Of a stretch of DNA of 64,000 nucleotides, positions 11,426 through 35,554 are shown piece by piece. Below the pieces are notes generated by a model. The model saw nothing but the letters and a program-made list of their open reading frames with translations. It was not told the origin of the DNA and searched no databases. Positions within the stretch are counted from its first letter, which is position 1. Each line of letters opens with the position of its first letter. The DNA is taken from contig NZ_FUXL01000013.1 of NCBI RefSeq assembly GCF_900167365.1, forward strand, positions 1-64,000, in the 5' to 3' direction. The position numbers were made by a program, and so were the translations under genes. This stretch comes from Consotaella salsifontis. Its GTDB lineage: Bacteria > Pseudomonadota > Alphaproteobacteria > Rhizobiales > Rhizobiaceae.

Positions 11426-11439
11426 CCCAGGCAATTCCC

Positions 11440-14400
11440 ATGAACGACCAGACCTTGCCGATTGCGGCGGATGTCAACACAGTGCCGGACCCGGAGGCCG
11501 AAGACTGGTATAAGGACGCGATTATCTACCAGCTCCACGTTAAGACCTTCGCCGATTCGTCCGGCGACGGAACGGGAGACTTCGCGGGCCTTCTGGAAAA
11601 GCTGGATTACATCAAGGCCCTCGGCGTAACGGCCATCTGGCTGTTGCCGTTCTACCCCTCGCCCCTGAGGGACGACGGCTACGACATCGCCGATTATCGC
11701 GCGGTTCATCCCTCCTACGGCACGATGGAGGACTTCGAGCGCCTGGTGGAGGAAGCGCACAAGCGCGGACTCAGGGTGATCACCGAACTTGTCATCAACC
11801 ACACCTCGGACCAGCATCCGTGGTTCCAGGCGGCGCGCAACGCCCCCGCCGGCTCGCCCGAGCGCGACTTCTACGTCTGGGCCGACGATGACAAGGGCTA
11901 TCCGGACACGCGCATCATCTTCCTCGACACCGAGGTTTCCAATTGGACCTGGGACCCGGTGGCCAAGCAGTACTTCTGGCACCGCTTCTATTCCCACCAG
12001 CCGGACCTCAACTTCGACAATCCGAAGGTGATGGAGGAGGTGCTCTCGGTGATGCGCTTCTGGCTGGACAAGGGCGTCGACGGGCTGCGCCTTGACGCCA
12101 TTCCCTATCTGGTCGAACGCGAGGGCACCAACAACGAGAACCTGCCCGAGACCCACGACGTCCTGAAGGAAATCAGGGCCGAACTCGATCGCAACTACAA
12201 GGGCAAGATGCTCTTGGCCGAGGCCAACCAGTGGCCCGAGGACACGCGCCCCTATTTCGGCGAGGGCGACGAGTGCCACATGGCATTCCACTTCCCCCTG
12301 ATGCCGCGCATGTACATGGCCCTCGCCCAGGAAGATCGGCACCCGATCACCGACATCCTGCGCCAGACGCCGGACATCCCGGACAATTGCCAGTGGGCGA
12401 TCTTCCTGCGCAATCACGACGAGCTGACGCTCGAGATGGTGACGGAGGAGGAGCGCGACTATCTCTGGTCGACCTACGCCGCAGACACCCGCGCCCGCAT
12501 CAACCTCGGCATCCGCCGCCGGCTCGCGCCCCTCATGGGCAACGACCGGCGCAAGATCGAGCTCTTGAACGCGCTGCTTATGTCCATGCCCGGCACGCCG
12601 ACCGTCTACTATGGCGACGAGATCGGCATGGGCGACAACTACTATCTCGGCGACCGCGATGGCGTGCGCACGCCCATGCAGTGGTCCGTCGACCGCAATG
12701 GCGGTTTCTCGCGCGCCGACCCCCAGAAGCTCTATCTGCCGCTGATCCAGGACCCGATCTACGGCTATCTCGGGCTCAACGTCGAGGCACAGAACAACAA
12801 CCCCTCCTCGCTCCTCAACTGGATGCGGCGCCTGATCCAGGTGCGCCGCACGAGCGAGGCCTTCGGCCGGGGTTCGATCACCTTCCTCTATCCCTCGAAC
12901 CGCAAGATTCTGGCCTATCTGCGCGAATACAAGAACGGCAAGGTCCTCTGCGTCGCCAACCTGTCGAGTTCGGCGCAGGCCGTGGAGCTCGATCTTTCCG
13001 CCTACCAGGGCTTCCTGCCGGTCGAGATGGTGGGAGGCGCGGCCTTCCCGCGCATCGGCCAGCTGCCATACCTTTTATCGCTGCCGGCCTATGGCTTTTA
13101 TTGGTTCGAGCTGACGCCGGGAGACACGACGAGCGTCGACAACACTCCGGTGCCGCTGCCCGATTTCACCACCGTCGTGATGACCGGCGATCTCAAGGCC
13201 AGCATCAGCGCCCGCAATAAGCGCGACCTTGAAGGCATCCTGCCCGATTTCGTCGGTCGCCAGCGCTGGTTCTCCGGCAAGACGGCGCGGCCGAAGAAGG
13301 TCGAGCTGATCCCGTATGACTCGCCGCCGGCCTCGCGCCATCACCTGATTGCCGAGGCCCGTGTCGAGGGCGCGGCGGGTGAGCAACGCTACTTCCTGCC
13401 CTTGGGCGTGAAATGGGGCGAAAAGCACCTGCACCGCGACGCGCCGGCGCTTCCCTACACCATCGCCAAGATCCGCCGGGGCCCGCGTACAGGTGCCATA
13501 CTCGACGGCGCCCGCGATGCCGATCTCGCCAAGGTCTTCGTCGACCTCATCGGCGCAGGCGAGACGGTGGAGATGGAAAACGGGGCGCTCGTGGTCGAAG
13601 GCTCGGCGACCGAGGCAGAAGCCGTCGCCGAGGCTATGGAGGTCGATGCCGACGCCATCCACCCGCTGGGCGGAGAACAGTCGAACACCTCGCTCCAGGT
13701 CGGCACGGTCGCGATCCTCAAGTTCTATCGCCAGCTCAGGGACGGCATTCAGCCGGAACTCGAGGTGACGCGCTTCCTCACCGAGAAAACGAGCTTCGAA
13801 GCTGCGCCCGCCCTCTATGGCAGCGTCACATTGAAGCGCGCCGACGGCAGCGAGGCGGCCATCGCCGCCCTGTTCGAGCGCATCGAGAACCAGGGCGACG
13901 CCTGGGCTATGGTGACGGACGCCCTTGCCCGCCACCTGCGCGACAACGCCTATGCCCAGGCGACGACAGAGGAGGGCGACGGCGGCGAGACGGCGCCGGT
14001 GGAGCCGGTGCTCAACATCCAGATCGACCCGGGCGCCACCATAGGCCGACGCACGGGCGAGATGCATGCCGCCCTCGCCACGCCGACGGGCGACCCGGCC
14101 TTCGACCCAGAGCCGATCGACGCGGCCTCCCTGGCGGAGATCGTCGCCGAAGCGCGCAAGGAGGCCGAGGGAGCCCTCGACCTTCTCGACCAGCTTCAGG
14201 CGCAGTCGGCGCATGGCGCGGCACTGCCCGAGGGCGTTGCCCGGCTCACCGAGGCGCGCGGGGCGATCCTGTCGTGGTTCGACGGCTTCAGCGCGGGGCG
14301 CTTCTCCAGCCCGCGCACCCGCATCCATGGTGACTACCATCTCGGCCAGGTTCTGGTGGCCAAGAACGACGTCGTCATCCTCGATTTCGAGGGCGAGCCG

Positions 14401-14768
14401 GGCCGCCCGCTGGACGAGCGACGCCGGAAGACATCGCCGCTGCGCGATGTCGCCGGCATGCTCCGCTCCTTCGACTATGCCGCCTACGCCGCCTTCGACC
14501 ACGCGGGGCCGGCCGAGGAGGCGGCGCTGCAGCGCATGTTCGACATGGCGGGCGTCTGGCGTGACGACGCCACCCGCACCTTCCTCGCCTCATGGAGCGA
14601 GGCATCGGGAATCGATGCGGAGGAAGAAGGGAACGCACGGCTCCTCGATCTCTTTCTCCTGCAGAAGGCATTTTACGAATTGAAGTACGAGGCGGCCTCG
14701 CGCCCGGCGTGGCTGTCGATCCCGTTGCGCGGGATCATTTCTCTTCTCGAGAAGCGACAGGTCCTCTG

Positions 14769-14769
<1 letters not shown>
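11440..14769 (+). CDS. treS: Trehalose synthase / maltokinase fusion (TreS-Mak)
   Basis: A 1109-residue bifunctional protein. The N-terminal roughly 550 residues are a GH13 trehalose synthase that interconverts trehalose and maltose, with [16 protein letters not shown], nucleophile Asp219 in [10 protein letters not shown], acid/base Glu261 in [10 protein letters not shown], and [11 protein letters not shown]. From about residue 590 a maltokinase (Pep2-like) domain begins ([16 protein letters not shown]) and carries the kinase-like catalytic motifs [10 protein letters not shown] and VILDFEGEP. Together they turn trehalose into maltose-1-phosphate, the GlgE substrate. The ATG at 11440 ([11 protein letters not shown]) was chosen over an earlier in-frame start inside glgE. 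The stop overlaps the glgB start by one base (TGATG), indicating translational coupling. Confidence 0.95.
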
Positions 14770-17000
<2,231 letters not shown>

Positions 17001-20846: not shown

Positions 20847-21722
20847 TCAGTCCACCGGCACCACGTCCACCGCGTGCCACGATCTCTGCGCGCCGGCCGT
20901 CGTGACCACCCCCGCCATGGGAGCGATGTCGGCATAGTCGCGGCCGATGGCTGCGATGATGTGCCCTTCCCCGGCAAGGATGCCGTTGGTCGGGTCGAAG
21001 CCGATCCAGCCGATCTCCGGGCCGAGCCAAGCCATCACCCAGGCATGCATGGCATCGACGCCTTCGATGCGCGGCTGGCCGGGCGGCGGATCGGTCTTGA
21101 GATAGCCGCTGGCATAGGCGGCGGGAAGCCCGAGCCCCCTGAGCCCGGCGATCATGACGTGGGCGAAGTCCTGGCAGACGCCGCGCCGCAGAGCGAAGGC
21201 GGCGGCAACGTCCGTGGTGACGTCGGTGAAGCCCTCCTCGTAGGTGAACTCGTTTCTGATCGTGGTCGCGAGATCCAGGCAGGCGCGGCCGACAGAGACG
21301 CGCCGCCCCGACCGGGCCGCGGCATAGGCCGTGACGTCGGGAACGAGCTTGACGGCCCTGCTAGAACCCAGGAAGTGCGCGGGCGAAAGAGCGGCGAGAT
21401 CTCGGCTCGCCTCCGCCGCCCGCGCCACCTCGCCGACAGGCAGTGCCAGGTTGAGATCGGGCGCCGTGCGCTCCACCGCGACGCGCGCGCGCATCTCGAT
21501 CGACAGACGATCGTGGGCGCGATCGATCCGGAACCGGTCGACGGTATTGCCAAAGAAATCCGTCTCCCGCCCCTGCTCCCCCGGCCGAGGATCGATGAGG
21601 AGCGAAGCGGCTTCCACGCTCTGGCCAAAGCCCGCGCGCGGGCGAACACGCAGGAGATGGCTCGATTCGCCGACGGCGGAGGGATAGTCGGTGCCGATCC
21701 TCAGGCGAATATCGCAGATCAT
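20847..21722 (-). CDS. Transglutaminase-like cysteine peptidase family protein (COG1305)
   Basis: A 291-residue protein with an N-terminal beta-sandwich (bacterial transglutaminase-like N-terminal region, LRVRPRAG) and a transglutaminase/peptidase core. The catalytic triad is visible: Cys183 in RRGVCQDFAH, His226 in DAMHAWV and Asp243 in GFDPTNG. It is cytoplasmic by sequence, with no signal peptide. The start codon overlaps the stop of the ATP-grasp/alpha-E gene by 4 nt (ATGA), so the two are translationally coupled. In this conserved neighbourhood such proteins are predicted to hydrolyse or form amide bonds in a ligase-made peptide. No substrate is known. Confidence 0.9.
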   Translation of the reverse strand: MICDIRLRIGTDYPSAVGESSHLLRVRPRAGFGQSVEAASLLIDPRPGEQGRETDFFGNTVDRFRIDRAHDRLSIEMRARVAVERTAPDLNLALPVGEVARAAEASRDLAALSPAHFLGSSRAVKLVPDVTAYAAARSGRRVSVGRACLDLATTIRNEFTYEEGFTDVTTDVAAAFALRRGVCQDFAHVMIAGLRGLGLPAAYASGYLKTDPPPGQPRIEGVDAMHAWVMAWLGPEIGWIGFDPTNGILAGEGHIIAAIGRDYADIAPMAGVVTTAGAQRSWHAVDVVPVD

Positions 21723-24163
21723 TCCGCCTCCCCCCTTTCCTCGCCTCCCGCCGCGCCGGAGAAATAGCGACGCAGCAGGAGATCGGAGATCGCCGAGAAA
21801 TCGGCGCTGGCGCGGTTGAGAAACGCTTCGTCCACCTCCGCCGGCTCGGCCGTTTCCAGCCGCACGGCAAGGCGCGCGGTGCGGCGGATCAGGCCGTCGG
21901 GCGTCACGCCCCCGCCCGTTCCCGGAAGATGCTCCAGCATCTCCTTCAGCTTGCCCGCCTGGAACGAAACCGAGCGCGGGTTGAGCGGATCGAGCATGGC
22001 GAGATCCAGCACCGTCTCCCGCGACAGGGCGACGGAATAGCGTCGGCGGTGGGCGACGCGGCTGTCGGTGAATTCGAGCAGCGCCTCCAGCGCGCCTTCC
22101 GGCGGCTCGCCTTTGAGCAGCGTGGCGGCGATCCCCGCCGTGATAGTGCCGCGTTCCAGATGGCGTCCGGCTTCCAGAAAGCGCCAGCCGGTAAAACGCA
22201 CCATGTTTTCGTGGACGAGGCCGGTGAAGCCGGCGAGCCGTGTCAGCATCTCGCCGAGGAGGCGCTGCAGCGCCTCGATGCCGAGCCCCGGCGGGCTGCG
22301 CAGGATCAGCTCCTCCAGCTCGGCGAGCACCCGCCAGCCATCGGGCGAGAAACGATCGCGGATGCGCGAGGCCGTCGCCGAGGCCGCCCGCGCATGCGCC
22401 TCCAGCCCGACAACGGGATCATGGGAAAGCGAAACACCATAGGCCGCGAGAAGATCGCCGATGCGCTGGATCAGCGGCGCGCCCTCCCCGAGTTCGCCTT
22501 GCCGCGCCGCCGCAAGGCGCAGAAGCCGGGTTACGCCCTCCGTGCGCTCGACATAACGCCCGAGCCAATAGAGATTGTCCGCCGAGCGCGAGGGCAAGGC
22601 GTTGGGCAGGCGCCGGGCAAACCGCGCCCCTCCCCCGCCGAGCAGGGTCACGGGCTTCGGCTCCTGGCTGGACGTCACCCAAACGTCGATCGAGTGCCCC
22701 CCCGCCTGCATGGCAACGGCGCGCGGGTCGTCGGACTGCGAGACGCGCGCAAAGCCGCCGGGCATGACGAACCAGCCGTCCTCGCCTCGCGCCAGATAGA
22801 CCCTGAGCGTGACCGGGCGCGGCTCCAACTGCCCGGCCGAGAAGACAGGCACGGTCGAGAGGGCAACCATCTCCTGCCCGACCAGCGAAGCCGCTTCCAC
22901 CGCCGGTCCGAAAAGGCTTTCGGGGCTGGCGCCACCGGTGGCGGGCAGGATCGGCCGCATCGCGCCTTCTTCGCCAGAGGCTGGTGGAAAGGCCGGCGCC
23001 AGCGCCATTCTCTCCCGGTTAGCCCGCACAAGCTCGCGTTCGCTTCCTTGGCCGCACCACCAGGTCGCGATCACCGGCAGCTTCAGCTCCTCGCCGAGCA
23101 GCCGTTTGGCCATGGCCGCCTGAAAGGCGAGCAGCGCGCGAGTTTCGAGAATGCCGGAGCCGAGCGCGTTGACCAGCCTTACTCTTCCGGCCCGCACCGC
23201 AGCCACAAGCCCGGCGGTGCCGATGCGCGAGGCGGAAAAGAGCTCCAGCGGATCGGCATAGTCGGCATCGAGCCGGCGCCACAGAACGGGAATGGGTCTT
23301 GCGCCATGGACGGTGCGGACCGCGACACCGGTCTCCCCGGCGACGAGATCGCCGCCCTCGAGGAGCGTGAGGCCGAGATAGCGGGCGAGATAGGCGTGTT
23401 CGAAATAGGTCTCGTTGTGAGGACCGGGCGTCAGAAGGCCAACGCGCCCGGTTGGCGAGCCGGTGAGGCGAAACAGCGTCTCGCGAAAGCGCTGGAAGAA
23501 ACCGGCGAGGCGCTCGACCCGCATGGCGCGACTGACGTCGCCGAAGGCGCGCGCCGTCGCCACGCGATTCTCCAGCGCAAAGCCGGCGCCGGAGGGCGCC
23601 TGGGCGCGGTCGCCGAGCACCCACCAGCGCCCGTCGGGCCCCCGGCCGAGATCGATGGCGATGAAGCGGATGAGCGGCTCGCCCGAGGCCGCCTGCCCGG
23701 CGAGCGGGCGCAGATATTCCGGATTCCGGGCGACGATGGGAGCGGGCAGAATGCCCTCGGCCACCAGACGGTTGTCGCCGTAGAGATCGGCGAGGAGGCG
23801 CTCCAGAAAGACGGCGCGCTGGACGAGCCCGGCCTCGAGCGCTGCCCACTGGCCTTCGCCTATGACCAGCGGCGGATAGGCGAGCGGCCAGACGCGCTGC
23901 TCCTCGCCCGGGTCCTCGCCGCCATAGACGCGATAGAAGACGCCGGCCTCGCGCAGGTAGCGCCCGGCGCGCGCAAAGCGCGCGGTACGCTCGGCGCGAT
24001 CCATGGCGCTGAGGGCGTCGGCCAGCGGACGGTAGCACTCACGGACGGTGCCGCCCGCCTCCATCATCTCGTCGAAGCCGCCGGCCGGCGGCCGGTAGCC
24101 GGCGAGAAGCGCCTCCAGGCTCCCTGCCCCCGTCATGCCCGGCCGCTCCCCTTCCCTTTCCAT
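21719..24163 (-). CDS. Circularly permuted ATP-grasp (COG2308) + alpha-E (COG2307) fusion
   Basis: An 814-residue protein combining two genes that are often separate. Residues about 40-510 are a circularly permuted ATP-grasp type 2 domain (YRVYGGEDPGEEQRVWPL, LLADLYGDNRLV, GDRAQAPSGAGFALENR, LTPGPHNETYFEHAYLAR). Residues about 525-805 are the helical alpha-E domain (SADNLYWLGRYVERTEGVTRLLR, FTDSRVAHRRRY, LDPLNPRSVSFQ). ATP-grasp domains of this type are predicted to form peptide or amide bonds and alpha-E is a predicted partner. The ATG at 24163 shares its A with the upstream TGA; a GTG one codon earlier (24166) and an ATG at 24133 (MTGAGSLEAL) are alternatives. It lies in the middle of a three-gene overlapping operon. 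Confidence 0.88.
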   Translation of the reverse strand: MEREGERPGMTGAGSLEALLAGYRPPAGGFDEMMEAGGTVRECYRPLADALSAMDRAERTARFARAGRYLREAGVFYRVYGGEDPGEEQRVWPLAYPPLVIGEGQWAALEAGLVQRAVFLERLLADLYGDNRLVAEGILPAPIVARNPEYLRPLAGQAASGEPLIRFIAIDLGRGPDGRWWVLGDRAQAPSGAGFALENRVATARAFGDVSRAMRVERLAGFFQRFRETLFRLTGSPTGRVGLLTPGPHNETYFEHAYLARYLGLTLLEGGDLVAGETGVAVRTVHGARPIPVLWRRLDADYADPLELFSASRIGTAGLVAAVRAGRVRLVNALGSGILETRALLAFQAAMAKRLLGEELKLPVIATWWCGQGSERELVRANRERMALAPAFPPASGEEGAMRPILPATGGASPESLFGPAVEAASLVGQEMVALSTVPVFSAGQLEPRPVTLRVYLARGEDGWFVMPGGFARVSQSDDPRAVAMQAGGHSIDVWVTSSQEPKPVTLLGGGGARFARRLPNALPSRSADNLYWLGRYVERTEGVTRLLRLAAARQGELGEGAPLIQRIGDLLAAYGVSLSHDPVVGLEAHARAASATASRIRDRFSPDGWRVLAELEELILRSPPGLGIEALQRLLGEMLTRLAGFTGLVHENMVRFTGWRFLEAGRHLERGTITAGIAATLLKGEPPEGALEALLEFTDSRVAHRRRYSVALSRETVLDLAMLDPLNPRSVSFQAGKLKEMLEHLPGTGGGVTPDGLIRRTARLAVRLETAEPAEVDEAFLNRASADFSAISDLLLRRYFSGAAGGEERGEAE

Positions 24164-27100
24164 CACGAAAGATGCGCCGGCCGGCGAAGGTCGAGCGTCG
24201 TCGGGAAGGTCGGGTCGGGGACTTCGGACGGTGGCACGAAACCGCCCGCCGTGTGGCCGATATCCTCGAAGCGGGCGAGCCGCCGCGCCTCGGCCTCATA
24301 GGCATTGACCGGGAACGTCTCGTAATTTCGCCCGCCGGGGTGGGCGACATGGTAGACGCAGCCGCCGAGCGAGCGGCCCGTCCACGTATCGTAGAGATCG
24401 AAGGTGAGCGGCGCGTGGACGGGAATGGTCGGATGAAGGCCCGAGGCCGGCTGCCACGCCTTGAAGCGCACGCCGGCCACCCAATCGCCGTTCTTTCGGC
24501 CCGGCACGAGCGGCACACGCCTTCCGTTGCAGGTGACGACGTGGCGCCCGTCCTCCAGCCCCGAAACCTTCACCTGAAGGCGCTCGACCGAGGAATCGAC
24601 GAAGCGCACCGTGCCGCCGATGGCGCCCGTCTCGCCCATGACATGCCAGGGCTCCAGCGCCTGCCGGAGTTCCAGCGACACGCCCTCGCGCTCGATGCGT
24701 CCGCAGAAGGGAAAGCGGAATTCGGCCTGCGCCTCGAACCATTCGGGGCGCACGGCATAGCCTGAGCGGTTGAGGTCGGCCACCACTTCCAGGAAATCGC
24801 CCCAGACGAACTCGGGCAGCATGAAACGGTCGTGAAGCCGGGTGCCCCAGCGCACGAACTTGCCCGAAGCCGGCTCCTTCCAGAACTTGGCGATGAGCGC
24901 GCGAATGAGGAGCTGCTGGGCAAGGCTCATCCGCGCATCCGGCGGCATCTCGAAGCCGCGGAACTCGATGAGGCCGAGCCGGCCCGTCGGCCCGTCCGGA
25001 GAATAGAGCTTGTCGATGCAGATTTCCGAGCGGTGGGTGTTGCCCGTGACGTCGATGAGCAGGTTGCGGAAGAGGCGGTCCACCAGCCAGGGCGGCGGCG
25101 CCATGCCGCTCCCCGGCGGCGGCACGTGATCCATGGCGATCTCCAGCTCATAGAGCTGGTCGTGGCGCGCCTCGTCGATGCGCGGCGCCTGACTGGTCGG
25201 GCCAATGAAAAGACCGGAGAAGAGATAGGACAGCGAGGGGTGGCGCTGCCAGGTCAGCACCAGCGACTTCAAAAGGTCGGGCCGGCGCAGGAACGGGCTG
25301 TCGAGCGGCGTCGCGCCTCCCACGACGACGTGGTTGCCGCCGCCCGTGCCGGCATGGCGCCCGTCGATCATGAACTTGTCGGTTCCGAGGCGGGTGAGCC
25401 GCGCCTCCTCATAGATTGCCGTCGTGATGTCCACTGCATCCCGCCACGTGTCGGCCGGGTGGATGTTCACCTCGATGACGCCGGGATCGGGGGCGACACG
25501 GATGACGTTCATGCGCGGATCGTGCGGCGGCTGGTAGCCCTCGATCTGGACCGGGACGCCCTTTTCTTCCGCCACCGCCTCGACGGCGCCGAGAAGATCG
25601 AGATAGGCCTCCACCGTCTCCGTCGGCGGCATGAAGACACAGAGCTTGCCGTCGCGCGGCTCGATGGAGAGCGCCGTCCGCACATAGCCGACGATGTCCG
25701 GCCCTGGACCGAAGCTCCGCCCTCCCGGCCCCTGGCTCATCCCGCCCATGGACTGGGTGCCCATCGGCGGAAGGGCGCCATCCGAGGCGAGACGTTGCCC
25801 CTGCGCCATGCCACCCATCGCCTGAAGCCCGCCCGAGGGCGACTGGCTCTGGCCGGCAGGCGCCGCAATGCGCATCTGATCGCGCCCCGGGCCGAACTCC
25901 TGCGGCTCCGGCAGCGGGCCGCTCGGCACGGTCGGATCGGAGGGGAAGATATAGGGGAAGGTCGAGGGCGGCAGGTAGGGCAGCGAGGACAGCGGTAGGC
26001 GATAGCCCACCGGACTATCGCCGGGCGTCAAGTACAGCTTGCCGCGCCGCGTCGACCAGCGCTCCGAGATCCATTTTAAGCCCCGCCCCTGCCAGGCCTG
26101 GATCGGCAGGACGTAGCCGGACGGGTGCGTGAGCCCCCGATCGAAGACCCGGGAGATGCGCGCGCGCTCCTCGGGGTCCTCGAGCTTGGGGTCGGTGGGA
26201 TCGACGTTCTCCGGAAGCTGTGCCTCTTTGACCAGCCAATAGGCCGGGTCCTCGAAGGCGGGCGCGGCATTGTCGGGGTCGACGCCAAGCTCGGCGGCGA
26301 CGGCCCGCGTGAACACCGCCGCGTCCTCTGCCGTAACCGCTCGCTGATCGGCTTCGCGGGCGACGAGATCCGGCTTCTTCCAGATCGGCTTGCCGTCCTT
26401 GCGCCAGTAGAGCGAGAAGGTCCAGCGCGGCAGGGTTTCGCCCGGATACCACTTGCCCTGGCCGAAATGGAGGAAGCCGCCGGGGGCGAAGCGCTTCTGC
26501 AAGCGGCGGATTAAGGCGTCGGCGAGGCCCCGTTTCTGAGGGCCGGTGGCCTCGGTGTTCCACTCGGGCGACTGGAAGTCGTCGATCGAAACGAACGTCG
26601 GCTCGCCGCCCATGGTGAGCCGCACGTCGTTGCGCCGGAGCTCCTCGTCCACCGCCTCGCCGAGCGCGTCGAGCGCGGCCCAGCTCTCGTCGGAGAAGGG
26701 ATGCGAGACGCGCGGCCGCTCAGCGATGCGCTCGACGCTCATGTCGAAGGAGAACTCGACCTCGGCGTAGTCGACGGCGCCCGAGATCGGCGCGGCCGAG
26801 TGGTAGTGCGGCGTCGCGGCAAGCGGCACGTGGCTCTCGCCGGTGAGCAGCCCCGAAGTCGGGTCGAGGCCGATCCAGCCCGCCCCCGGCAGATAGACCT
26901 CGGCCCAGGCGTGAAGGTCGGTGAAATCGTGATCCGTTCCCGGCGGGCCGTCGAGCGCGACGATGTCGGGCTTCAGCTGGATGAGATAGCCTGAGACGAA
27001 GCGGGCGGCGAAGCCGAGATGACGCAGGATCTGAACGAGCAGCCAGGAGGTGTCGCGGCAGGAGCCGGAGCCCTTCTCCAGCGTCTCCTCCGGGTTCTGG

Positions 27101-27597
27101 ACGCCGGGCTCCATGCGGATGAGATAGTCGATCGCCTGTTCGAGCTTTTGGTTCAGCCCGACGAGGAAGTTCACGGTGTGCTTCTCGCTGCGATCGAGTT
27201 CGGCGAGGAAGGTCTGGAGCCGAGGCCCCGCCGGTTCCCGCTCCAGATAGGGCTCGAGATCGCTGCCGAGCGGCTCGGCGTAGGTGAACGGCCACTCGGT
27301 GGCATAGTCCTCGACGAAGAAGTCGAAGGGATTGTAGACCGTCATGTCGGCGAGGAGATCGACCTCGATCTTGAATTCGTTCGCCTTCTCCGGGAAGACG
27401 AAGCGCGCGAGATAGTTGCCGAACGGGTCCTGCTGCCAATTGATGAAGTGTTCCTTGGGCGTGACCTTCAAGGAATAGGACGCGACCCGCGTCTTGGAGT
27501 GCGGCGCCGGTCGAAGACGGATGGTCTGGGGGGCGAGAGTGACCGGCCGGTCGTACCTGTAGTGGGTGACGTGGTGGAGGGCAGCGAGGATCGACAT
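24163..27597 (-). CDS. Transglutaminase-like + DUF2126 (COG4196) large protein
   Basis: An 1144-residue protein. The N-terminus [19 protein letters not shown] begins a transglutaminase N-terminal domain, and the transglutaminase core has Cys180 in [10 protein letters not shown], His229 in [11 protein letters not shown] and Asp245 in GLDPTSGL. The remainder is DUF2126, which Iyer and colleagues related to glutamine-synthetase-like/amidoligase folds ([55 protein letters not shown]). A Met/Gly/Gln/Pro-rich linker interrupts it (nt about 25715-25885). The ATG at 27597 is the family start; upstream in-frame codons lie in the intergenic region. As first gene of the operon it is divergent from the zinc metallopeptidase. 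Its biochemical reaction is unknown. Confidence 0.9.
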
Positions 27598-27839
27598 CGG
27601 AGCCTTTTGCGAAACGCGAGGGAGGACGCGGAAGTCAACTGTAGACGAACGGAGTGCTGCGGCAAGCGCCGATCGCCGCACAGGTCCGTTGCGACGGCGG
27701 CTGCCATTGCTCGGCCGGCTCGCCAAATATTGAACGAAGCAGAGGCGTTCCGCGCAATTGCGGCGGAACCGCTTGACCGCCCGGTCATTGTTGGCGCGGT
27801 CTTCCCAGCGGCGAAAGTGCCGCCAAACGGTTCCGGCTC
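27598..27839. promoter_or_regulatory. Divergent intergenic region of the peptide-ligase island
   Basis: These 242 nt separate the start of the DUF2126 operon (minus) from the start of the metallopeptidase gene (plus). Both promoters must lie here, so the two transcription units can be co-regulated. No convincing hexamer pair or operator palindrome was found by eye. Confidence 0.45.
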
Positions 27840-28898
27840 ATGAAGCTTTTCTCCTGCCCATCCTGCGGCAACGTCGTCTATTTCGAGAACGTGGTGTGCG
27901 AGAATTGCGGGCATGCGCTTGGCTTTGAGCCCGGCGCCATGACGATGCTCGCCCTGGAACAGGAGGGCGACGGCTGGAAGGAGGCGGGCAGTCACGCCAC
28001 CGAGGCGACGTGGCGCTATTGCGAGAACTACGCTCATGGCGTCTGCAATTGGCTGGTGCCGACGACCAGCGAGACGACCTTCTGCCTCGCCTGCCGCCAC
28101 AACCTCATCATCCCGCCGCTGACAGACCCCGCAAATCTGCCGCTCTGGCAGAAGATGGAGATCGCCAAGCGCCGGCTCTTCTACACGCTCCTGAAGCTCA
28201 GACTTCCGCTTCTGACGCGAGACGAGAACCCCGAGGGACTAGGCTTCGAATTCCTGGCCGAGGGCGTGGCGGGAACCGAGCATGTGATGACCGGCCACGA
28301 CCATGGCCTCATCACCATCGCCATCGCCGAGGCCGACGACGCCGAGCGCGAAAAGCGCCGCACCCAGATGGGCGAGCCCTACCGCACTCTTCTCGGCCAC
28401 TTCCGCCACGAGATCGGCCACTGGTATTGGGATCGGCTGGTGCGGGATGGCGGCAGCCTGGATGCCTGCCGTGCCCTGTTCGGCGACGACAGCGAAGATT
28501 ATGGCGAGGCGCTGCAGCGCCACTACGCGAACGGACCGAAGCCCGACTGGCAGACCGACTATGTGTCGGCCTATGCCGGCTCCCATCCCTGGGAGGACTT
28601 CGCCGAAACCTGGGCACACTACCTCCACATCGTCGACACCCTGGAGACGGGGCGCTCCTGGGGCATCTCCATCGATCCGCGCGTCGACAACAAGGGTCTC
28701 CTGCACGCCGACCTCGATTTCGATCCCTACGCGCCCGGCATCACGATCAAGGAGATCACGGACGCCTGGTTGCCCCTCGCCGCCGCGCTCAACTCCTTCA
28801 ACCGCTCCATGGGTCAGCAGGACCTCTATCCCTTCGTCCTCTCCCCAGGGGTCATCGAGAAGCTCGGCTTCATCCACGATCTCGTTCACGGCAGGTAA
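27840..28898 (+). CDS. Putative zinc-binding metallopeptidase (COG4307 family)
   Basis: A 352-residue protein. Two N-terminal zinc-ribbon cysteine sets are visible: C6, C9, C20, C23 (CPSCG and CENCG), and CENYAHGVC (61-69) with CLAC (82-85). The catalytic domain has the zincin motif HEIGHWYWD (H190, E191, H194), and the downstream acidic segment SHPWEDFAETWAHYLHI may supply the third ligand. It is cytoplasmic by sequence. Members are repeatedly found beside the transglutaminase/ATP-grasp/alpha-E genes, as here, and are predicted to cleave the peptide or conjugate those enzymes make. The start ATG at 27840 is unambiguous. The divergent arrangement with the DUF2126 gene supports a functional link. 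Confidence 0.88.
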   Translation: MKLFSCPSCGNVVYFENVVCENCGHALGFEPGAMTMLALEQEGDGWKEAGSHATEATWRYCENYAHGVCNWLVPTTSETTFCLACRHNLIIPPLTDPANLPLWQKMEIAKRRLFYTLLKLRLPLLTRDENPEGLGFEFLAEGVAGTEHVMTGHDHGLITIAIAEADDAEREKRRTQMGEPYRTLLGHFRHEIGHWYWDRLVRDGGSLDACRALFGDDSEDYGEALQRHYANGPKPDWQTDYVSAYAGSHPWEDFAETWAHYLHIVDTLETGRSWGISIDPRVDNKGLLHADLDFDPYAPGITIKEITDAWLPLAAALNSFNRSMGQQDLYPFVLSPGVIEKLGFIHDLVHGR

Positions 28899-29124
28899 GC
28901 CGCCACCCTTCCGTTTGCCCACGACATCGCGCCGGCGGCCATGAACCTTAGACCGCCCCGCATTTTTCCGGCCCCGACCGCTGGACGGCGGGAGGATCAG
29001 GCCAATCTTGTGTTGCAGAAAAACGGCCATCGAACGGGGATGGGCGGGGCCGCTTGCAGTCGGCCCACATATGACCAGCAACGCTATTCACGGCGCCCGC
29101 GAGGGAGCCGAGGCAAGGGACGAC

Positions 29125-31002
29125 ATGACTGGTGAGGCGACCTTTTCTTGCGAAACCTCATGGGGTCCAAGGATCGGCGAGACGGGCACGCTGTTTCGCC
29201 TTTGGGCTCCGGGAGCACAATCCATCGAGCTGGCGATCGGCAAGGCGGACGGCCCCGACTTTCTCGCCATGGAGCGCGACGAGGCGGGGTGGTGGCGCGT
29301 CGAGACCGACCGCGTCGCCATCGGCGGCGGCTATGGATTCCGGGTGAACGGCGACATGGTGGTGCCCGACCCGGCGGCGCGGGCGCAGATCGACGGCGTG
29401 CATGGCCTGTCGCGGCTAGTGGATCCGAAGGCCTATCGGTGGAAGACCGCAGATTGGAAGGGCCGCCCGTGGGAGGAAACGGTCTTCTACGAGCTCCACA
29501 CCGGCACCTTTACCCCGGAAGGCACCTTCGAGGCGATCATCGAAAAGCTCGATTACCTGAAGGAGGTCGGCATCACGGCGGTCGAGCTTCTGCCGGTCGC
29601 CGAATTCTCAGGCAGGCGCGGCTGGGGCTATGACGGCGTCTATCTCTATGCGCCGCACGAGGTCTATGGCGGTGTCGAGGGGCTGAAGCGCCTCGTCGAC
29701 GCGGCCCACGAGCGCGGACTGATGGTCTTCCTCGACGTCGTCTACAACCACTTCGGCCCGGACGGAAACTACCTCGGCGTCTATGCGCCGGAGTTCTTCC
29801 ATCCCGAGATTCACACCGCCTGGGGCGCGGCCATCGCCTACGATAAGAAGCCGGTGCGCGATTTCATGATCGAGAACGCGCTCTATTGGCTCGAGGAGTT
29901 TCGCATCGACGGCCTGCGTCTCGACGCCATCGACTCCATCGAGGATACCACCGACGAGCCGCTGATCCGCGAGCTGGCGTCCGCCGTGCGCACGCGCATC
30001 ACAGACCGGCACGTGCATCTCACCAGCGAGGACGCGCGCAACATCACCTGGCACATCGAGCGCAACAAGGATTGTTCGCCGAAATACGTCAGCGGCGAGT
30101 GGAACGACGACTTTCACCACACCGCCCACGCCATCGCCACCAAGGAGAGCGAGGGCTACTACCAGGATTATTCCCGCTCCGCGGTGAAGCAGATGGCCAG
30201 GGCGCTGGCCGAGGGCTTCGTCTACCAGGGCGATCATTCCCGCCACCGCGACAAGGATGTCGGCTTCCCCTCGGCTCATCTTCCGCCGACCGCCTTCGTC
30301 AATTTCCTCCAGAACCACGACCAGATCGGCAACCGCGCCTTCGGTGAGCGGCTGACCGATCTCGCCTCGCGCCGGCTGGTGGCGGTGCTCCAGTCGATCC
30401 TCCTGCTGTCGCCGCAGATCCCGCTGATGTTCATGGGCGAGGAGTATGGCGAGACCAACCCGTTCTGCTTCTTCACCGATTTCCATGGCGAGCTCGGCGA
30501 GATCGTGCGCGAGGGGCGGCGCTCGGAGTTCAAGCACTTCGCCGCCTTCCGCAATCCCGAGAACCGCAAGCTCATTCCCGACCCGAACGACGAGGAAACC
30601 TTCCTCCAGTGCAAGATGGATTGGACGGCCGCGCGCGGTCGACCGACCTACCGGCGCCGCCTCGATCTGGTGGAGCGGCTGCTGACCTTGCGCCGTGAGA
30701 GGATCGTGCCGCTGCTGAAGGGAATGGGCGGCCATGCCGGCCGCTATCACGTCGACGAGTCGACCGACGCTTTCGCCGTCTCCTGGCGGCTGGCGGGAGA
30801 CAACGTGCTGCGCCTCTTCGCCAATCTCGACGACGAGCCGTGGAACGTGCCGCAGGCCGTGACCGCGGGCGCGGCGGCCGCCGGCGAGGTTCTGTTCGAA
30901 CACGAGGCCGGAGCGGCCGAAAGCCTCGCCACCGGCGTCCTGCCCGGCCCCTCCGTCGTCTTCCGCTTCGCGCCCAACCTCCAGATCGGGAAAGACTCAT
31001 GA
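29125..31002 (+). CDS. treZ: Malto-oligosyltrehalose trehalohydrolase
   Basis: A GH13_10 enzyme of 625 residues that releases trehalose from maltooligosyl-trehalose made by TreY. An N-terminal E-set domain (GTLFRLWAPGAQSIELAIG) precedes the barrel, which has nucleophile Asp267 in GLRLDAIDSIED, acid/base Glu302 in HLTSEDARN, and NFLQNHDQIGNRAFGERL. The ATG at 29125 (MTGEATFS) has AAGGG at 29115-29119 with a good 5-nt spacer; an ATG at 29071 lacks a site. The stop overlaps the malQ start by 4 nt (ATGA). It is the first gene of treZ-malQ-treY. Confidence 0.95.
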   Translation: MTGEATFSCETSWGPRIGETGTLFRLWAPGAQSIELAIGKADGPDFLAMERDEAGWWRVETDRVAIGGGYGFRVNGDMVVPDPAARAQIDGVHGLSRLVDPKAYRWKTADWKGRPWEETVFYELHTGTFTPEGTFEAIIEKLDYLKEVGITAVELLPVAEFSGRRGWGYDGVYLYAPHEVYGGVEGLKRLVDAAHERGLMVFLDVVYNHFGPDGNYLGVYAPEFFHPEIHTAWGAAIAYDKKPVRDFMIENALYWLEEFRIDGLRLDAIDSIEDTTDEPLIRELASAVRTRITDRHVHLTSEDARNITWHIERNKDCSPKYVSGEWNDDFHHTAHAIATKESEGYYQDYSRSAVKQMARALAEGFVYQGDHSRHRDKDVGFPSAHLPPTAFVNFLQNHDQIGNRAFGERLTDLASRRLVAVLQSILLLSPQIPLMFMGEEYGETNPFCFFTDFHGELGEIVREGRRSEFKHFAAFRNPENRKLIPDPNDEETFLQCKMDWTAARGRPTYRRRLDLVERLLTLRRERIVPLLKGMGGHAGRYHVDESTDAFAVSWRLAGDNVLRLFANLDDEPWNVPQAVTAGAAAAGEVLFEHEAGAAESLATGVLPGPSVVFRFAPNLQIGKDS

Positions 31003-32855
31003 GCGAACGCCTCGACCGCCTCGCCGAGAGCCACGGCATCCAGCTCGCCTACATCTCCGAGCTCGGCGAGCGCCACATGATTTCCGACGAAGCCAAGGCG
31101 CGTCTGCTCAAGGTCATGGGCATCGACCCGGAAACGGGCCCGGAAGGCGCGTTCGACGAGGCGGCCGATCAGTCGACGTCGCGCTGCTACGTGCCGCCGA
31201 TGCCGGAACGTGGCCTGTGGGGGGTCGCCTGCCAGCTCTACGGCCTGCGCTCGCGGCGCAATCTCGGCATCGGCGACTTCGAGGATCTCGGGAGGCTCGC
31301 CACCATCGCCGGGGCGGTCGGGGCCGCCTTCATCGGCGTCAATCCGCTTCACGCGCTGTTTCTGGCCGATCCGGGGCGCTTCAGCCCTTACGCACCGTCG
31401 AGCCGGCGCTTCCTCAACCCGTTCTATATCGCCATCGACCAGATCGAAGGGGGGCCGGCCGCCATCGACGGGGTGAGAGCCGAGGCGCCGGAAATGTTCG
31501 AGGGGCTCGACGAGGACCTCGTCGACTACCCACGGGTGGGCGCTCTCAAGCGGCGCCTCCTGCGCTCTCTGTTCTCGGCGCGCCTGGAAGCGATCCGCGG
31601 CGACGAGGAATTCCAGCGCTTCTGCGCCGGTGGCGGCGAGCCGCTGCGCGACTTCGCGCTGTTCGAGGCGATTTCCGAAAAGATGGTCGAGGCCGGTCAT
31701 CACGCCGGCTGGCATTCCTGGCCGGAGGAGATGCGCGATCGGCAGGGCCAGGCCGTGAAGGATTTCGCCGCCGCCCATCAGGACGACCTTCTCTTTCATC
31801 TCTGGCTTCAATATCTCGCCGAGGCCCAGCTTGCCGCCGCGCAGACGCGCGCGACGGGCGCGGGAATGCGGATCGGGCTCTATCTGGATCTGGCGGTGGG
31901 CGTCGCCCCCGACGGTGCCGAGACCTGGGCCGATCCCGCCCTGACGGCGGGGGCCGCGCGCATTGGCTCTCCGCCCGACATGTTCAATTCCTCCGGTCAG
32001 GACTGGGGCCTCGCCCCGCTCTCTCCGGCGGCCCTGGCGGAGCGCAACTTCAAGCCACTGGAAGATTCCTTCTCGATGCTGATGCGCAATGCCGGCGCGG
32101 TTCGCATCGACCATTCCATGGGGCTCGCCCGCCTCTGGTGGATTCCCGCCGAAGTCGGCGCCAAGGACGGCGGCTATGTGCGCTATCCGCTCGGCCGGAT
32201 GATCGATGTCGTGGCCAAGGCATCGCAGGAGAACAAGTGCCTCGTCATCGGCGAGGACCTCGGCACCGTTCCGCCCGGCTTCCGTCATTTCATGGGAGAG
32301 GCCGCGATCCTCTCCTATCGACTGCTCTATTTCGAGCGCCATGGCGAGACTGGTTTTCTGCCGCCGTCAGCCTATCCCGACCTCGCGCTGGCCTGCATCT
32401 CCACCCATGATCTGCCGACCCTGAAGGGCTGGTGGACGGGCGCGGATGTCAATCTGCGCTTCGAGCTCGGCACGCAGGACCAGACGGCGACGGACCGCAC
32501 ATGGGACGAGCGCCGGCGCGACCGGCGAGCCCTTGTTCTCGCCCTCAAGGACGCCGCGCTGCTGCCGGAAGAGTTTGAGCGTGCCGCGTCCGGCGAGGAG
32601 GCCATGCCGCCCGATCTACCGCTTTCGCTGGTCGAGGCGGTCCACCGCTTCATCGCCCGCACACGCGCGATCGTCGTCGCCGCCCAGATCGACGACATGA
32701 TCGGCTCGACGCGGCAGCTCAACGTCCCGGGCACCACCGATCAATACCCCAATTGGCGCATCCGCCTGAATGTCTTCCTGGAAGATCTCGCCTCGCATGA
32801 GGAGTTCCAGAGGCTGGCATCGGCGATGAGAGAAGAGCGACCGGCCGAACGATGA
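30999..32855 (+). CDS. malQ: 4-alpha-glucanotransferase
   Basis: A GH77 amylomaltase of 618 residues that disproportionates maltooligosaccharides. Recognisable blocks are GLWGVACQLYGLRSRRNLGIGDFEDL, the nucleophile Asp371 in VRIDHSMGLARLWWIP, the acid/base Glu419 in VIGEDLGTVP, and STHDLPTLKGWW. The N-terminal about 60 residues form the extra helical segment of longer proteobacterial MalQ. It overlaps treZ and treY by 4 nt on each side, so the three proteins are translationally coupled. Its place between the two trehalose enzymes suggests it recycles the short dextrins left when TreY stops on short chains. Confidence 0.95.
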   Translation: MSERLDRLAESHGIQLAYISELGERHMISDEAKARLLKVMGIDPETGPEGAFDEAADQSTSRCYVPPMPERGLWGVACQLYGLRSRRNLGIGDFEDLGRLATIAGAVGAAFIGVNPLHALFLADPGRFSPYAPSSRRFLNPFYIAIDQIEGGPAAIDGVRAEAPEMFEGLDEDLVDYPRVGALKRRLLRSLFSARLEAIRGDEEFQRFCAGGGEPLRDFALFEAISEKMVEAGHHAGWHSWPEEMRDRQGQAVKDFAAAHQDDLLFHLWLQYLAEAQLAAAQTRATGAGMRIGLYLDLAVGVAPDGAETWADPALTAGAARIGSPPDMFNSSGQDWGLAPLSPAALAERNFKPLEDSFSMLMRNAGAVRIDHSMGLARLWWIPAEVGAKDGGYVRYPLGRMIDVVAKASQENKCLVIGEDLGTVPPGFRHFMGEAAILSYRLLYFERHGETGFLPPSAYPDLALACISTHDLPTLKGWWTGADVNLRFELGTQDQTATDRTWDERRRDRRALVLALKDAALLPEEFERAASGEEAMPPDLPLSLVEAVHRFIARTRAIVVAAQIDDMIGSTRQLNVPGTTDQYPNWRIRLNVFLEDLASHEEFQRLASAMREERPAER

Positions 32856-35554
32856 AGAGACAGTTGGTCGCAACCTATCGGTTGCAGTTTCGCGAGGGTA
32901 CCGACTTCGAAAGCGGCCGCCAGCTCGCCCCGTATCTGAAGCGGCTCGGCGTCAGCCATCTCTATGCCTCGCCGATCTTCACGGCCGCGCCCGGCTCAAC
33001 TCATGGCTACGACGTCGTCGACTACAACGCCTTCGAACCGGCGCTCGGCGGGAATGACGGCTTCGTCGCCATGAGCGACGCCCTGATGGAAGCCGACATC
33101 GGGCTCATGCTCGATTTCGTGCCCAACCACATGGGCATCAGCCCTCAGAACGTGTGGTGGGAGGATGTGCTCACATGGGGCGCGGATAGCCGCTTCGGCG
33201 ACGTCTTCGACATCGCCTGGGACGCCGAGAAGATCCTCGTCCCGGTGCTCGGCAAGCCCTACGGCGACGCGCTCGCGGACGGGGACCTGTCGGTGATCAT
33301 CGATGCCGGCAAGCGCCGGCTGCGCTTCGATGCCGCCGGCTACCAGCTGCCGCTCGACCCGCGCAGCCTCGGCATCGTCTTCCGCTTCCTGGAGCATGAG
33401 GCGCGCGAGCAGCTCGTTCGGCGCTTTGCCGTCGCCACGCCGTGGGACGCCGCCGAACTCGACGAGCGCTTCGAGGAGCACCTGGAGGACGAGACCTTCC
33501 GCGCCGCGCTGGACGCGGCCGTCGCCGCCGTCAACGGCGACAAAAGTGCGTTGCACGAGCTGCACGAGGCGCAGAGCTGGCGCCTTGCCTGGTGGCGCAC
33601 GGCGCGGGAAAAGCTGACCTATCGCCGCTTCTTCGAGATCGCCGACCTGATCGGCGTTCGCCAGGAAAGGCGCCGGGTCTTCCAGGAATCGCACCGCACA
33701 CTCATCCGCCTCGCCAAGGAGCGGCGGCTCGACGGCGTTCGCATCGACCATGTCGACGGCCTCGGCGATCCCAAGAGCTATCTGAGCGACCTGAAGCAGG
33801 CGTTCTCCGGCGTTCGCCGCAGCCCGACCATCCATGTCGAGAAGATCCTCACCGGCCCGGAGCGCCTTCGCGCCAGCTGGGAGATCGAGGGAACCACCGG
33901 CTACGAATTCATCACCGCGCTCGCCGGCCTCTATGTCGATGGTGACCAGGAAGCGGCGATGACGCAGGCCTATTGCGGCTTCGTCGGGGAAGAGGACCCT
34001 TTGCGCACGATGATCGCCAAGCAGAAGCGGGTGATCTTCTTCCGCAATCTGGCGGGCGAGCTGCAGTTCCTCACCAACGAAGCGATGAACGTCGCCTCGC
34101 GCGGGCTCTCGACCCGCGACCTCGGGCCGGACACCATGGCCCGGTCGATCGTCGAGATGGCGGCCCAGCTGCCGGTCTATCGCACCTATGTCAGCGTCGA
34201 GGGCGTGCCGGCCCATGACACGGCGGTGATCGATGGCGCGGTCGAGCGCGCCAAGGCGGGACGCGAGGTGGAAGCGGACGAGCCGATCGAGTTCATCGGG
34301 CGGCTGCTCAAGCTCGACTTCTCGGACGCGCTCGATGTCGCCGGCGCGCTGGAGTTCACCCGGCGCTTCCAGCAGACGACGGGCGCGGTGATGGCCAAGG
34401 CCGTGGAGGACACGGTCTTCTACCGCTACAACCGCCTCATCGCCCTCAACGAGGTGGGCGGCGAGCCCGACCATTACGGCACCGGCGTAGAGGAATTCCA
34501 CCAGGCGATGGCGATCCGCCTGGAAGACCAGCCGGAAGGCTTGCTGGCCAGCTCCACCCACGACACCAAGCGCGCCGAGGACGCGCGCGCCCGGCTCTAC
34601 ACCTTGAGCGAGGCGCCGGAGCGCTGGGCCGAGTTGGTGGAAGGGTGGCGCAAGACGATGGAGCCTTTCCGCGCTCCCGCCGACAGTCTGACCATCTCGC
34701 CCGACCCGGCGACGGAGTGGATGTTCTACCAGGCGCTCGCCGGTGTCTTGCCGTGCGACTTCGACCCGGATGACACGGGCGCGCGGGCCAATATCGAGGC
34801 TCGCTTGGCGGCCTTCATGGAAAAGGCGGTGCGCGAGGCCAAGCGCTACACCAGCTGGACCGCGCCCGGCACCGCCTACGAGGCCCAGCTCGCGACCTTC
34901 GTTCATGCCGCCTTCGACGAAGAGGCGACCGGCTCGTTCCTCGCCGACTTCTGGTCCTCCATTCAGCCTTTCGTCGCCGCCGGCGCCCTCACCTCGCTGT
35001 CGCAGACGCTGCTCAAGCTGACAGTGCCCGGCGTGCCCGATATCTACCAGGGCACGGAGTTCTACGATTTCAGCCTCGTCGATCCGGACAACCGTAGGCC
35101 CGTCGACATCAATGGGCGCAGCACGCTCATTCACGACGACGCATCGATCGCCGAGGCGATGGCGAAGTGGCGTGATGGGCGGGTGAAGGCCAAGCTGCTC
35201 GCGGCGGGGCTCGCGGCCCGCGCCGAGGCGCCCACTCTCTTCACCTCGGGCGCCTATACCCCGCTAGCGATCGAGGGCGAGGCGAGCAGGCACCTTCTCG
35301 CCTTCGCCAGAACGGCGAAGGATGCGGCCGCTATCGTCGTCGTCCCGCGCCTCACGCTCGGTCTGCTGGACGGTGCGGAAGGGCTTCTGCCGCCGGCCGA
35401 GCGTTGGGAAGGCGGACGGCTGATCCTGCCGGAGGACTTCGAGGGGCGCGGCTTCCGCGATGTCCTTTCGGGCGGCAGGCGGCGGGCCGGCAAGTCCATG
35501 GAGCTGTCGGCTCTTCTCAAGGGCCTGCCCCTCGCGTTCCTGCTCGCGGCATGA
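32852..35554 (+). CDS. treY: Malto-oligosyltrehalose synthase
   Basis: A GH13_26 enzyme of 900 residues that isomerises the reducing-end alpha-1,4 bond of maltodextrins to the alpha-1,1 bond of trehalose. Diagnostic blocks are ATYRLQFREGTDFE, LGVSHLYASPIF, LDFVPNHMGIS, nucleophile Asp299 in DGVRIDHVDGLGDPKSYL, the EKILTGPERL region with the acid/base Glu, and STHDTKRAEDARARL. The length is typical. The start ATG overlaps the malQ stop (ATGA). The 3' end converges with the ketopantoate-reductase gene with only 21 nt between stops. Confidence 0.96.
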   Translation: MKRQLVATYRLQFREGTDFESGRQLAPYLKRLGVSHLYASPIFTAAPGSTHGYDVVDYNAFEPALGGNDGFVAMSDALMEADIGLMLDFVPNHMGISPQNVWWEDVLTWGADSRFGDVFDIAWDAEKILVPVLGKPYGDALADGDLSVIIDAGKRRLRFDAAGYQLPLDPRSLGIVFRFLEHEAREQLVRRFAVATPWDAAELDERFEEHLEDETFRAALDAAVAAVNGDKSALHELHEAQSWRLAWWRTAREKLTYRRFFEIADLIGVRQERRRVFQESHRTLIRLAKERRLDGVRIDHVDGLGDPKSYLSDLKQAFSGVRRSPTIHVEKILTGPERLRASWEIEGTTGYEFITALAGLYVDGDQEAAMTQAYCGFVGEEDPLRTMIAKQKRVIFFRNLAGELQFLTNEAMNVASRGLSTRDLGPDTMARSIVEMAAQLPVYRTYVSVEGVPAHDTAVIDGAVERAKAGREVEADEPIEFIGRLLKLDFSDALDVAGALEFTRRFQQTTGAVMAKAVEDTVFYRYNRLIALNEVGGEPDHYGTGVEEFHQAMAIRLEDQPEGLLASSTHDTKRAEDARARLYTLSEAPERWAELVEGWRKTMEPFRAPADSLTISPDPATEWMFYQALAGVLPCDFDPDDTGARANIEARLAAFMEKAVREAKRYTSWTAPGTAYEAQLATFVHAAFDEEATGSFLADFWSSIQPFVAAGALTSLSQTLLKLTVPGVPDIYQGTEFYDFSLVDPDNRRPVDINGRSTLIHDDASIAEAMAKWRDGRVKAKLLAAGLAARAEAPTLFTSGAYTPLAIEGEASRHLLAFARTAKDAAAIVVVPRLTLGLLDGAEGLLPPAERWEGGRLILPEDFEGRGFRDVLSGGRRRAGKSMELSALLKGLPLAFLLAA

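Follow-up and report, generated by a model that had tools for sequence, protein, structure and literature searches.

Gene neighbourhoods of the kind described here are credited to Iyer, Abhiman, Burroughs and Aravind (2009) in the available parts of three later papers (PMC6376114, PMC5666114 and PMC3597751), and Pfam describes one of the families concerned, DUF2126, as a putative amidoligase. No demonstrated product of the peptide or amide proposal of 2009 appears in the literature that we found, available in part. The related Anbu operon comprises a stand-alone circularly permuted ATP-grasp (CP-ATP-grasp), alpha-E, a transglutaminase and Anbu, and in the available part of PMC6376114 its ATP-grasp protein from Yersinia bercovieri releases phosphate from ATP. 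We analysed an island of this kind at positions 20847-28898 of the window, a 64,000-nucleotide stretch of Consotaella salsifontis (contig NZ_FUXL01000013.1, positions 1 to 64,000) that forms part of contig C15 in a 33-contig genome of 4.65 Mb. The original prediction, made from the letters of the window, had placed the island among the Iyer/Aravind neighbourhoods, and the credit given by the later papers supports this. Its further proposal of an undescribed system does not hold, such neighbourhoods being published and widespread. The island is a member of the known, widespread DUF2126-type amide/peptide-ligase operon family, and two of its features are noteworthy: what is probably a conserved pseudo-ligase, and a predicted glutamine-synthetase (GS)-fold ligase. 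The genes, with open reading frame abbreviated ORF and transglutaminase TGL, are as follows.

20847..21722, minus strand: TGL2, stand-alone transglutaminase-like protein (Pfam Bact_transglu_N and Transglut_core)
21719..24166, minus strand: CPG_aE, CP-ATP-grasp fused to alpha-E (Pfam CP_ATPgrasp_2, 1.7e-117, and Alpha-E, 2e-53)
24163-27726, minus strand: DUF2126 ORF (Pfam Bact_transglu_N, Transglut_core and PF09899, 1329 bits)
24163..27597, minus strand: DUF2126 protein from its ATG, with N-terminal TGL core and DUF2126 domain
27840..28898, plus strand: PepMx, zinc-ribbon and zincin protein (Pfam Zn_ribbon_DZR_6 and Peptidase_Mx, 1.2e-106)

The fused ATP-grasp and the DUF2126 domain

Judged from aligned sequences, CPG_aE is probably a conserved pseudo-ligase that appears to have lost the parts needed for ATP use. 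The alignment held 127 fused rows (126 distinct, L084 and L110 being the same genome) and 61 stand-alone rows (60 distinct, this genome's copy having been entered twice). Truncated or split genes were excluded (fused ORFs of <=650 residues or score <=300; stand-alone ORFs of score <=400 or >=650 residues). Sets A1, A2 and A3 took in, of the named rows, 68 of 79 usable for DUF2126, 58 of 69 for the fused form and 22 of 59 for the stand-alone form, respectively. In 60/60 distinct stand-alone copies there is no variation at the metal-motif E and N, at the first lysine or in the GGYG loop; among the 126 distinct fused copies the motif E and N survive in none and the first lysine in one, and the GGYG loop is lost. 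Position by position, the stand-alone residue is retained in the 127 fused rows at E156 in 0, N158 in 0 (Arg in 117), R160 in 2 (Gln in 107), D316 in 0, K317 in 1 (Arg in 83), Y320 in 0, the second lysine K364 in 20, Y372 of the GGYG loop in 0, P403 in 0 (Glu in 111) and D424 in 0, while D143 is Asp in 99 and Glu in 28. The copy in the window has none of the E-x-N metal ligands, the ATP lysines or the GGYG tyrosine, and in the E156-N158 region it aligns without gaps to the stand-alone copy of the same genome. Two of the altered sites are located as follows.

23606..23614, minus strand: G185-D186-R187 of CPG_aE, replacing the E-D-N of stand-alone copies, two of whose residues are presumed metal ligands
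23138..23140, minus strand: R343 of CPG_aE, which is Lys317 in stand-alone copies

The loss extends to other lineages: the E-x-N position reads Gly-x-Arg in the fused copy of an Enterobacter plasmid, Ala-x-His in Burkholderia cenocepacia and Ala-x-Arg in the actinobacterial Tsukamurella, and the Enterobacter and Burkholderia stand-alone copies are intact. Both forms retain the alpha-E motifs W-x-x-R-Y-x-E-R and G-x-x-x-E-R. In a quick tree built from this genome's two sequences and 45 randomly chosen ones of each form (92 rows, 91 of them different; long branches flagged), a single branch separates fused from stand-alone forms (SH-aLRT 100). In E. coli Gss, the catalytic residues are presumably R316, D318, E330, N332, K498, K533 and R598, the residue letters of which were confirmed; E330 and N332 would be the counterparts of the motif E and N. 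The predicted model of CPG_aE superposes on 3n6x with Z 43.2 and a root-mean-square deviation (rmsd) of 3.1 over 441 aligned residues, indicating a GspS-type ATP-grasp fold, and its metal residues were matched on the motif, Cp1B and the fold. We found no report of an inactive or degenerate ATP-grasp in the open-licence PMC literature.

CPG_aE could instead be an active ligase with a re-tooled site, in which R187, Q189, E341 and E432 bind nucleotide or metal differently. Conservation of these replacements (117, 107, 118 and 111 of 127 rows, respectively) and the closeness of the fold to 3n6x speak for such a site. However, both metal-motif letters, the first lysine and the GGYG loop have been lost together, and in Cp1B, which has the same fold, alanine at R139, D141, E163 or N165 abolishes or strongly reduces activity (PMC12568646, available part); we regard a re-tooled ligase as quite improbable. 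Simple decay is also disfavoured, because the replacement residues are conserved. The fused ATP-grasp had been read as a peptide ligase in the original prediction, a role undercut by the disappearance of metal- and ATP-site residues from the aligned copies. Its expectation of active sites conserved in homologues is borne out for the transglutaminase triads but not for the catalytic site of the fused ATP-grasp, where it is the replacements that are conserved.

Since the CPG_aE site residues are gone and the DUF2126 domain has a predicted GS fold, DUF2126 is probably the ATP-using ligase of the operon. Sequence searches of the PDB returned no relative of the domain, and the weak match of the full protein falls in its transglutaminase part. 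For the AlphaFold model of the domain (882 residues, pLDDT 77.8, pTM 0.79), Foldseek returned YbdK, gamma-glutamylmethylamide synthetase and glutamine synthetases (best E-value 1.4e-3). In a second structure comparison, the 50 rows shown were all GS or GS homologues (Z 13.6-15.1), the predicted model matching 8ooq_A at Z 15.1 (rmsd 3.8, 257 aligned). Invariant or near-invariant motifs, among them EFRxFEMPP, resemble by eye the metal and substrate motifs of GS and supply candidate residues.

24166..26811, minus strand: modelled DUF2126-domain stretch, predicted glutamine-synthetase-fold ligase
25471-25473 (E447), 25330-25332 (H494), 24964-24966 (E616) and 24958-24960 (R618), minus strand: candidate GS-like residues of DUF2126, from motifs by eye, in the numbering of model mf960c846e041

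Conservation of the operon and its putative processing enzymes

The arrangement of three overlapping minus-strand genes and a divergent HEIGH peptidase with zinc ribbons, as first described, was confirmed by ORFs and Pfam. The adjoining minus-strand genes TGL2, CPG_aE and DUF2126 share 4-base overlaps, and PepMx starts 242 bases from the DUF2126 ATG. The DUF2126 ORF opens with TTG; we prefer the ATG at 27597 because many relatives match only from ORF residues 36-44 onward, a few matching earlier. None of the four genes was matched by NCBIfam. Between DUF2126 and the peptidase lies a palindrome (27773-27786), rejected as an operator on its absence from the same place in 15 relatives.

27598..27839, no strand: intergenic region separating the divergent DUF2126 and peptidase genes, holding the palindrome TGACCG-CC-CGGTCA

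DUF2126 occurs in 63/150 sampled genomes of the order and 84/299 of the phylum. We read the neighbourhoods of 59 of the 62 other DUF2126 genomes of the order, and those of 80 named loci, a biased sample (the best 80 of a longer list) that includes Nitrospira, planctomycete, and beta- and gammaproteobacterial records. These 139 stretches represent 138 distinct genes, and all neighbourhood counts refer to what the stretches read, 5.6 to 23.6 kb long, contained. The fused CP-ATP-grasp/alpha-E gene was present in 54 of the 59 and 73 of the 80, TGL2 in 53 and 72, and the peptidase in 10 and 13, respectively; some of the misses are contig ends and others look real (L058, L059, L085). Co-occurrence of the core, raised as a check in the original prediction, is thereby confirmed, the fused and TGL2 genes not being scattered. 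A matching cluster is, we assume, Rv2566-Rv2569c of M. tuberculosis. The closest DUF2126 genes in named genomes are those of Methylopila, Aurantimonas and Mangrovicella (74-76% identity), followed by Fulvimarina and Aureimonas (71%). Transfer from family f34, suspected from scores, is no longer favoured: the named loci, like the shared trehalose setting described below, point to Aurantimonas and Mangrovicella as the relatives of this genome, and the four-gene form is found both in that group and in Methylopila.

The association of the peptidase with the operon is looser, being seen in a minority of lineages. Peptidase_Mx exceeds the cut-off in 41/150 genomes of the order (31/63 with DUF2126 and 10/87 without), and coordinates place it near DUF2126 in 11 of these 41, so that it can no longer be counted as a fixed part of the system. 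In the remaining 30 of the 41 genomes, it lies away from DUF2126 or the genome lacks DUF2126, as might be expected if the island were a chance cluster of unrelated enzymes. The three-gene core, however, is conserved in the order as well as at named loci from other phyla, which refutes chance for that core and leaves the idea with next to no probability.

Both transglutaminases of the operon carry intact Cys-His-Asp triads by sequence, in agreement with the earlier claim of two such triads and with the residues that it had named in TGL2. In TGL2, C and H are conserved in 117/117 rows and D in 113/117. In the TGL core of DUF2126, C180, H229 and D245 are each present in 139/139 rows, their role as a triad being read from the motif. 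In PepMx, H190 and H194 are found in 24/24 rows and E191 in 23/24.

21174-21176 (Cys183), 21045-21047 (His226) and 20994-20996 (Asp243), minus strand: TGL2 triad, from the alignment
27058-27060 (C180), 26911-26913 (H229) and 26863-26865 (D245), minus strand: triad of the DUF2126 TGL core, numbered from the ATG
28407-28421, plus strand: HEIGH motif of PepMx, residues 190-194

The genome has three PF08379 transglutaminases, two in the island and one on contig C7 (L216 7274-8140); the latter lies away from any ATP-grasp, with CsgG and HlyIII family genes nearby. Elsewhere, one genome (G399) has a form of DUF2126 that is divergent or shortened, matching at only 473 bits in a frame of 714 residues, and locus L126 has extra partial DUF2126- and TGL-like ORFs (1695-4621) upstream of a complete DUF2126 operon. 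Single-linkage clustering of 1424 neighbouring ORFs gave largest groups of 23, 15 and 15 loci, with representatives that appear by eye to be ABC ATPase-, LysR-type regulator- and aldehyde dehydrogenase-like.

Stand-alone ATP-grasp genes, Anbu and nitrogen limitation

The original prediction had remarked on the lack of Anbu. Its absence holds for the stretches read (0/59 in the order and 0/80 among named loci), a uniformity that makes it unremarkable, and the genome does have the gene, on contig C22. There, a stand-alone CP-ATP-grasp gene with an intact site is followed by alpha-E and then by a proteasome-family gene (C22:157526-158299) whose product starts Met-Thr and has T1, D17 and K32, a numbering that agrees with Anbu in the available part of PMC6376114. 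We call the gene Anbu on the strength of its setting and of these residues; Pfam assigns PF00227, and the one NCBIfam match, to an archaeal proteasome, is below threshold. This operon (L031 7524-9450) has no transglutaminase gene between alpha-E and Anbu, where most relatives carry one, and a second proteasome-family gene of the genome is found on contig C11.

Stand-alone CP-ATP-grasp genes keep close company with DUF2126 at the level of genomes. They are present in 60/63 DUF2126 genomes of the order versus 47/87 others (p 1e-8), where a second CP-ATP-grasp match was counted as a stand-alone copy and 41 of the order's 107 neighbourhoods were read, including this genome's own. Of the 40 others read, 39 have a transglutaminase-like ORF, two of these scoring best to the TGL part of DUF2126, and 35 have Anbu; the sole neighbourhood with no transglutaminase is cut by a contig end. 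Anbu itself occurs in 95/150 genomes of the order (52/63 with DUF2126 and 43/87 without). Across the phylum, a CP-ATP-grasp match is found in 84/84 DUF2126 genomes, with two or more in 79/84, and in 77/215 genomes that lack DUF2126. Stand-alone CP-ATP-grasp and alpha-E share a locus with DUF2126 in 16/80 named loci and 3/59 of the order, after removal of L166, L052 and L060, in which the fused gene is cut or split, from the 17 and 5 initially flagged. The order is CP-ATP-grasp, alpha-E, TGL, DUF2126, CPG_aE and TGL in B. cenocepacia, and CP-ATP-grasp, alpha-E, DUF2126, CPG_aE and TGL on a 90.7 kb Enterobacter roggenkampii plasmid. The plasmid that carries this five-gene set (L250 3234-12425) is of IncFII type and typed non-mobilizable in PLSDB.

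The presence of two intact transglutaminase triads and a peptidase would also suit protein tagging, a published hypothesis as summarised in the available parts of PMC6376114 and PMC5666114: the transglutaminases would couple a peptide tag built by the ligases to proteins, from which the zincin (or Anbu, encoded elsewhere) would release it. In the same part of PMC6376114, however, tests of Y. bercovieri Anbu revealed neither peptidase nor amidase activity towards the substrates used, nor did the protein interact specifically with the other products of its operon. Removal is moreover no fixed step, since Anbu is in none of the 139 stretches and PepMx in 31 of 63 DUF2126 genomes. The three gaps tested for a precursor peptide hold no conserved small ORF; all that matched were short stretches of nucleotide sequence, at best 54 bases in L153 (3.7e-7). 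We consider tagging unlikely.

Several lines suggest that the operon belongs to a nitrogen-limitation pathway: the linkage to the stand-alone genes, sigma-54-like sites in some relatives, and published NtrC data. First, sigma-54-like sites (GG and GC kept, <=1 mismatch; expectation by mononucleotide shuffling) occur upstream of DUF2126 in 10/137 distinct regions (1.1 expected) and upstream of stand-alone CP-ATP-grasp in 14/60 (0.6 expected); the internal fused gene has 1/125 (1.3 expected) and PepMx 0/23 (0.2 expected). Second, B. cenocepacia H111 genes I35_5080-83 (DUF404/407, DUF403, TGL and a large TGL) are among the NtrC/sigma-54 targets listed in the available part of PMC5491218, their values ranging from -6.0 to -9.4; the large TGL protein would be DUF2126, going by the B. 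cenocepacia gene order. Third, Pseudomonas putida PP_2685-2688 responds to nitrogen limitation (PMC7801951 and PMC8050072, available parts). These domains, DUF2126 not among them, accompany urea metabolism in marine metagenomes (PMC3597751, available part). We drew no evidence from papers on Caulobacter NtrC and hvyA, on an ATP-grasp gene in a table of Bradyrhizobium RpoN sites and on a COG2308 regulatory region in the competitiveness of Sinorhizobium.

A trehalose/glycogen block surrounds the island in the window (9392-17000 and 29008-35554), with genes for TreS-maltokinase and GlgB to one side and for TreZ, MalQ and TreY to the other, all of which pass NCBIfam cut-offs. Among the neighbours we presume a GlgE-like amylase-family gene. 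The block could mean that the operon makes a small amide acting with trehalose or glycogen in osmotic or desiccation stress; P. putida treY is indeed listed with nitrogen-sensitive promoters in the available part of PMC8050072, and TreY-MalQ-TreZ-like genes adjoin the island in 7/80 named loci. All seven are, however, Aurantimonas, Mangrovicella, Aureimonas or Fulvimarina, the genera in which block and island recur together, and in the stretches read from Methylopila (L093) and from the f34 genomes (L063-L065, L081) the four genes occur with no trehalose neighbours. With only 7/80 loci, we rejected the trehalose link as a general feature, and a stress solute is very doubtful.

The reading that we favour, at about an even chance, is that of an operon of known family in which the GS-fold DUF2126 ligase works, CPG_aE is a non-catalytic partner, and the transglutaminases and zincin process an amide. 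We postulate that DUF2126 would activate a carboxylate with ATP and join it to an amine, as GS-fold ligases do, giving as a first guess a small gamma-glutamyl or isopeptide-like amide. CPG_aE would hold the substrate or a partner protein and present alpha-E, alongside the intact stand-alone CP-ATP-grasp and alpha-E, which here are found together with Anbu on a separate contig. Transfer or hydrolysis of the new amide may then fall to the pair of transglutaminase-fold enzymes, with trimming by the zincin where present, and the pathway would probably serve in nitrogen limitation. More tentatively, we envisage a nitrogen-limitation amide pathway that would couple a GS-fold ligase/transglutaminase to a duplicated ATP-grasp/alpha-E pair, one copy intact and the other a pseudo-ligase partner or regulator, comparable to pseudokinases.

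A number of observations weigh against these proposals. The loss of catalytic residues leaves ATP binding or other chemistry possible for CPG_aE. For DUF2126, the Foldseek matches to GS are modest (no E-value <1e-3), GS residues are assigned by eye only, and profile comparison with 27 glutamine synthetases is non-significant (a probability of 0.1%), the alignment pairing VIEVN with QHE and GGGNH with the G-x-H motif of GS. Two or more CP-ATP-grasp matches also occur in 10/215 genomes of the phylum that lack DUF2126. As for nitrogen, 127/137 DUF2126 upstream regions have no sigma-54-like site at this stringency, and none (<=2 mismatches) lies upstream of this genome's DUF2126, PepMx or stand-alone CP-ATP-grasp genes; gene starts were taken as ORF starts, hence promoter distances are rough. 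The P. putida results were obtained for the Anbu operon rather than for DUF2126, and the Anbu gene PP_2685 showed only small increases, of 1.12 and 1.45, in two of the three strains (PMC7801951, available part).

If ligation is the work of DUF2126 and CPG_aE is a pseudo-ligase, no assay directed at the fused ATP-grasp could be expected to succeed, and the enzymes to test, in nitrogen-limited conditions, would be DUF2126 and the stand-alone CP-ATP-grasp. The persistence of such a pseudo-ligase next to an intact relative would, in addition, offer a clean example for the study of how ligases turn into scaffolds.

Relation to known systems

The neighbourhoods of Iyer et al. (2009), known here through citing papers, have the same families and are of the same kind as the island; relative to them, as those papers present them, our analysis adds the degenerate fused site, the predicted GS fold and the near-constant company of the stand-alone genes. 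The Rlo operon of Pseudomonas aeruginosa (ATP-grasp, inactive transglutaminase and aspartic protease) follows the same ligase/transglutaminase/peptidase logic but differs in families, its transglutaminase being an inactive membrane protein and its ATP-grasp RimK-related (PMC12239564, available part).

Glutathionylspermidine synthetase-like ATP-grasps share the fold of CPG_aE, 3n6x at Z 43.2, and E. coli Gss/YgiC/YjfC, glutathione synthetases and Cp1B at Z 20.5 to 25.8; unlike such ligases, CPG_aE has lost the E-x-N motif, the first lysine and the glycine-rich loop. The glutamine synthetase/YbdK carboxylate-amine ligase superfamily has the fold predicted for the DUF2126 domain, although the latter is about 850 residues long compared with 420-490 in typical matched GS chains, is joined to a transglutaminase core, and shows no significant sequence similarity. 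The ATP-grasp, alpha-E and transglutaminase of the Anbu operon are homologous to those of the island. In contrast to that operon, the island lacks Anbu, possesses a predicted GS-fold ligase, and has an ATP-grasp that is degenerate and joined to alpha-E in one protein.

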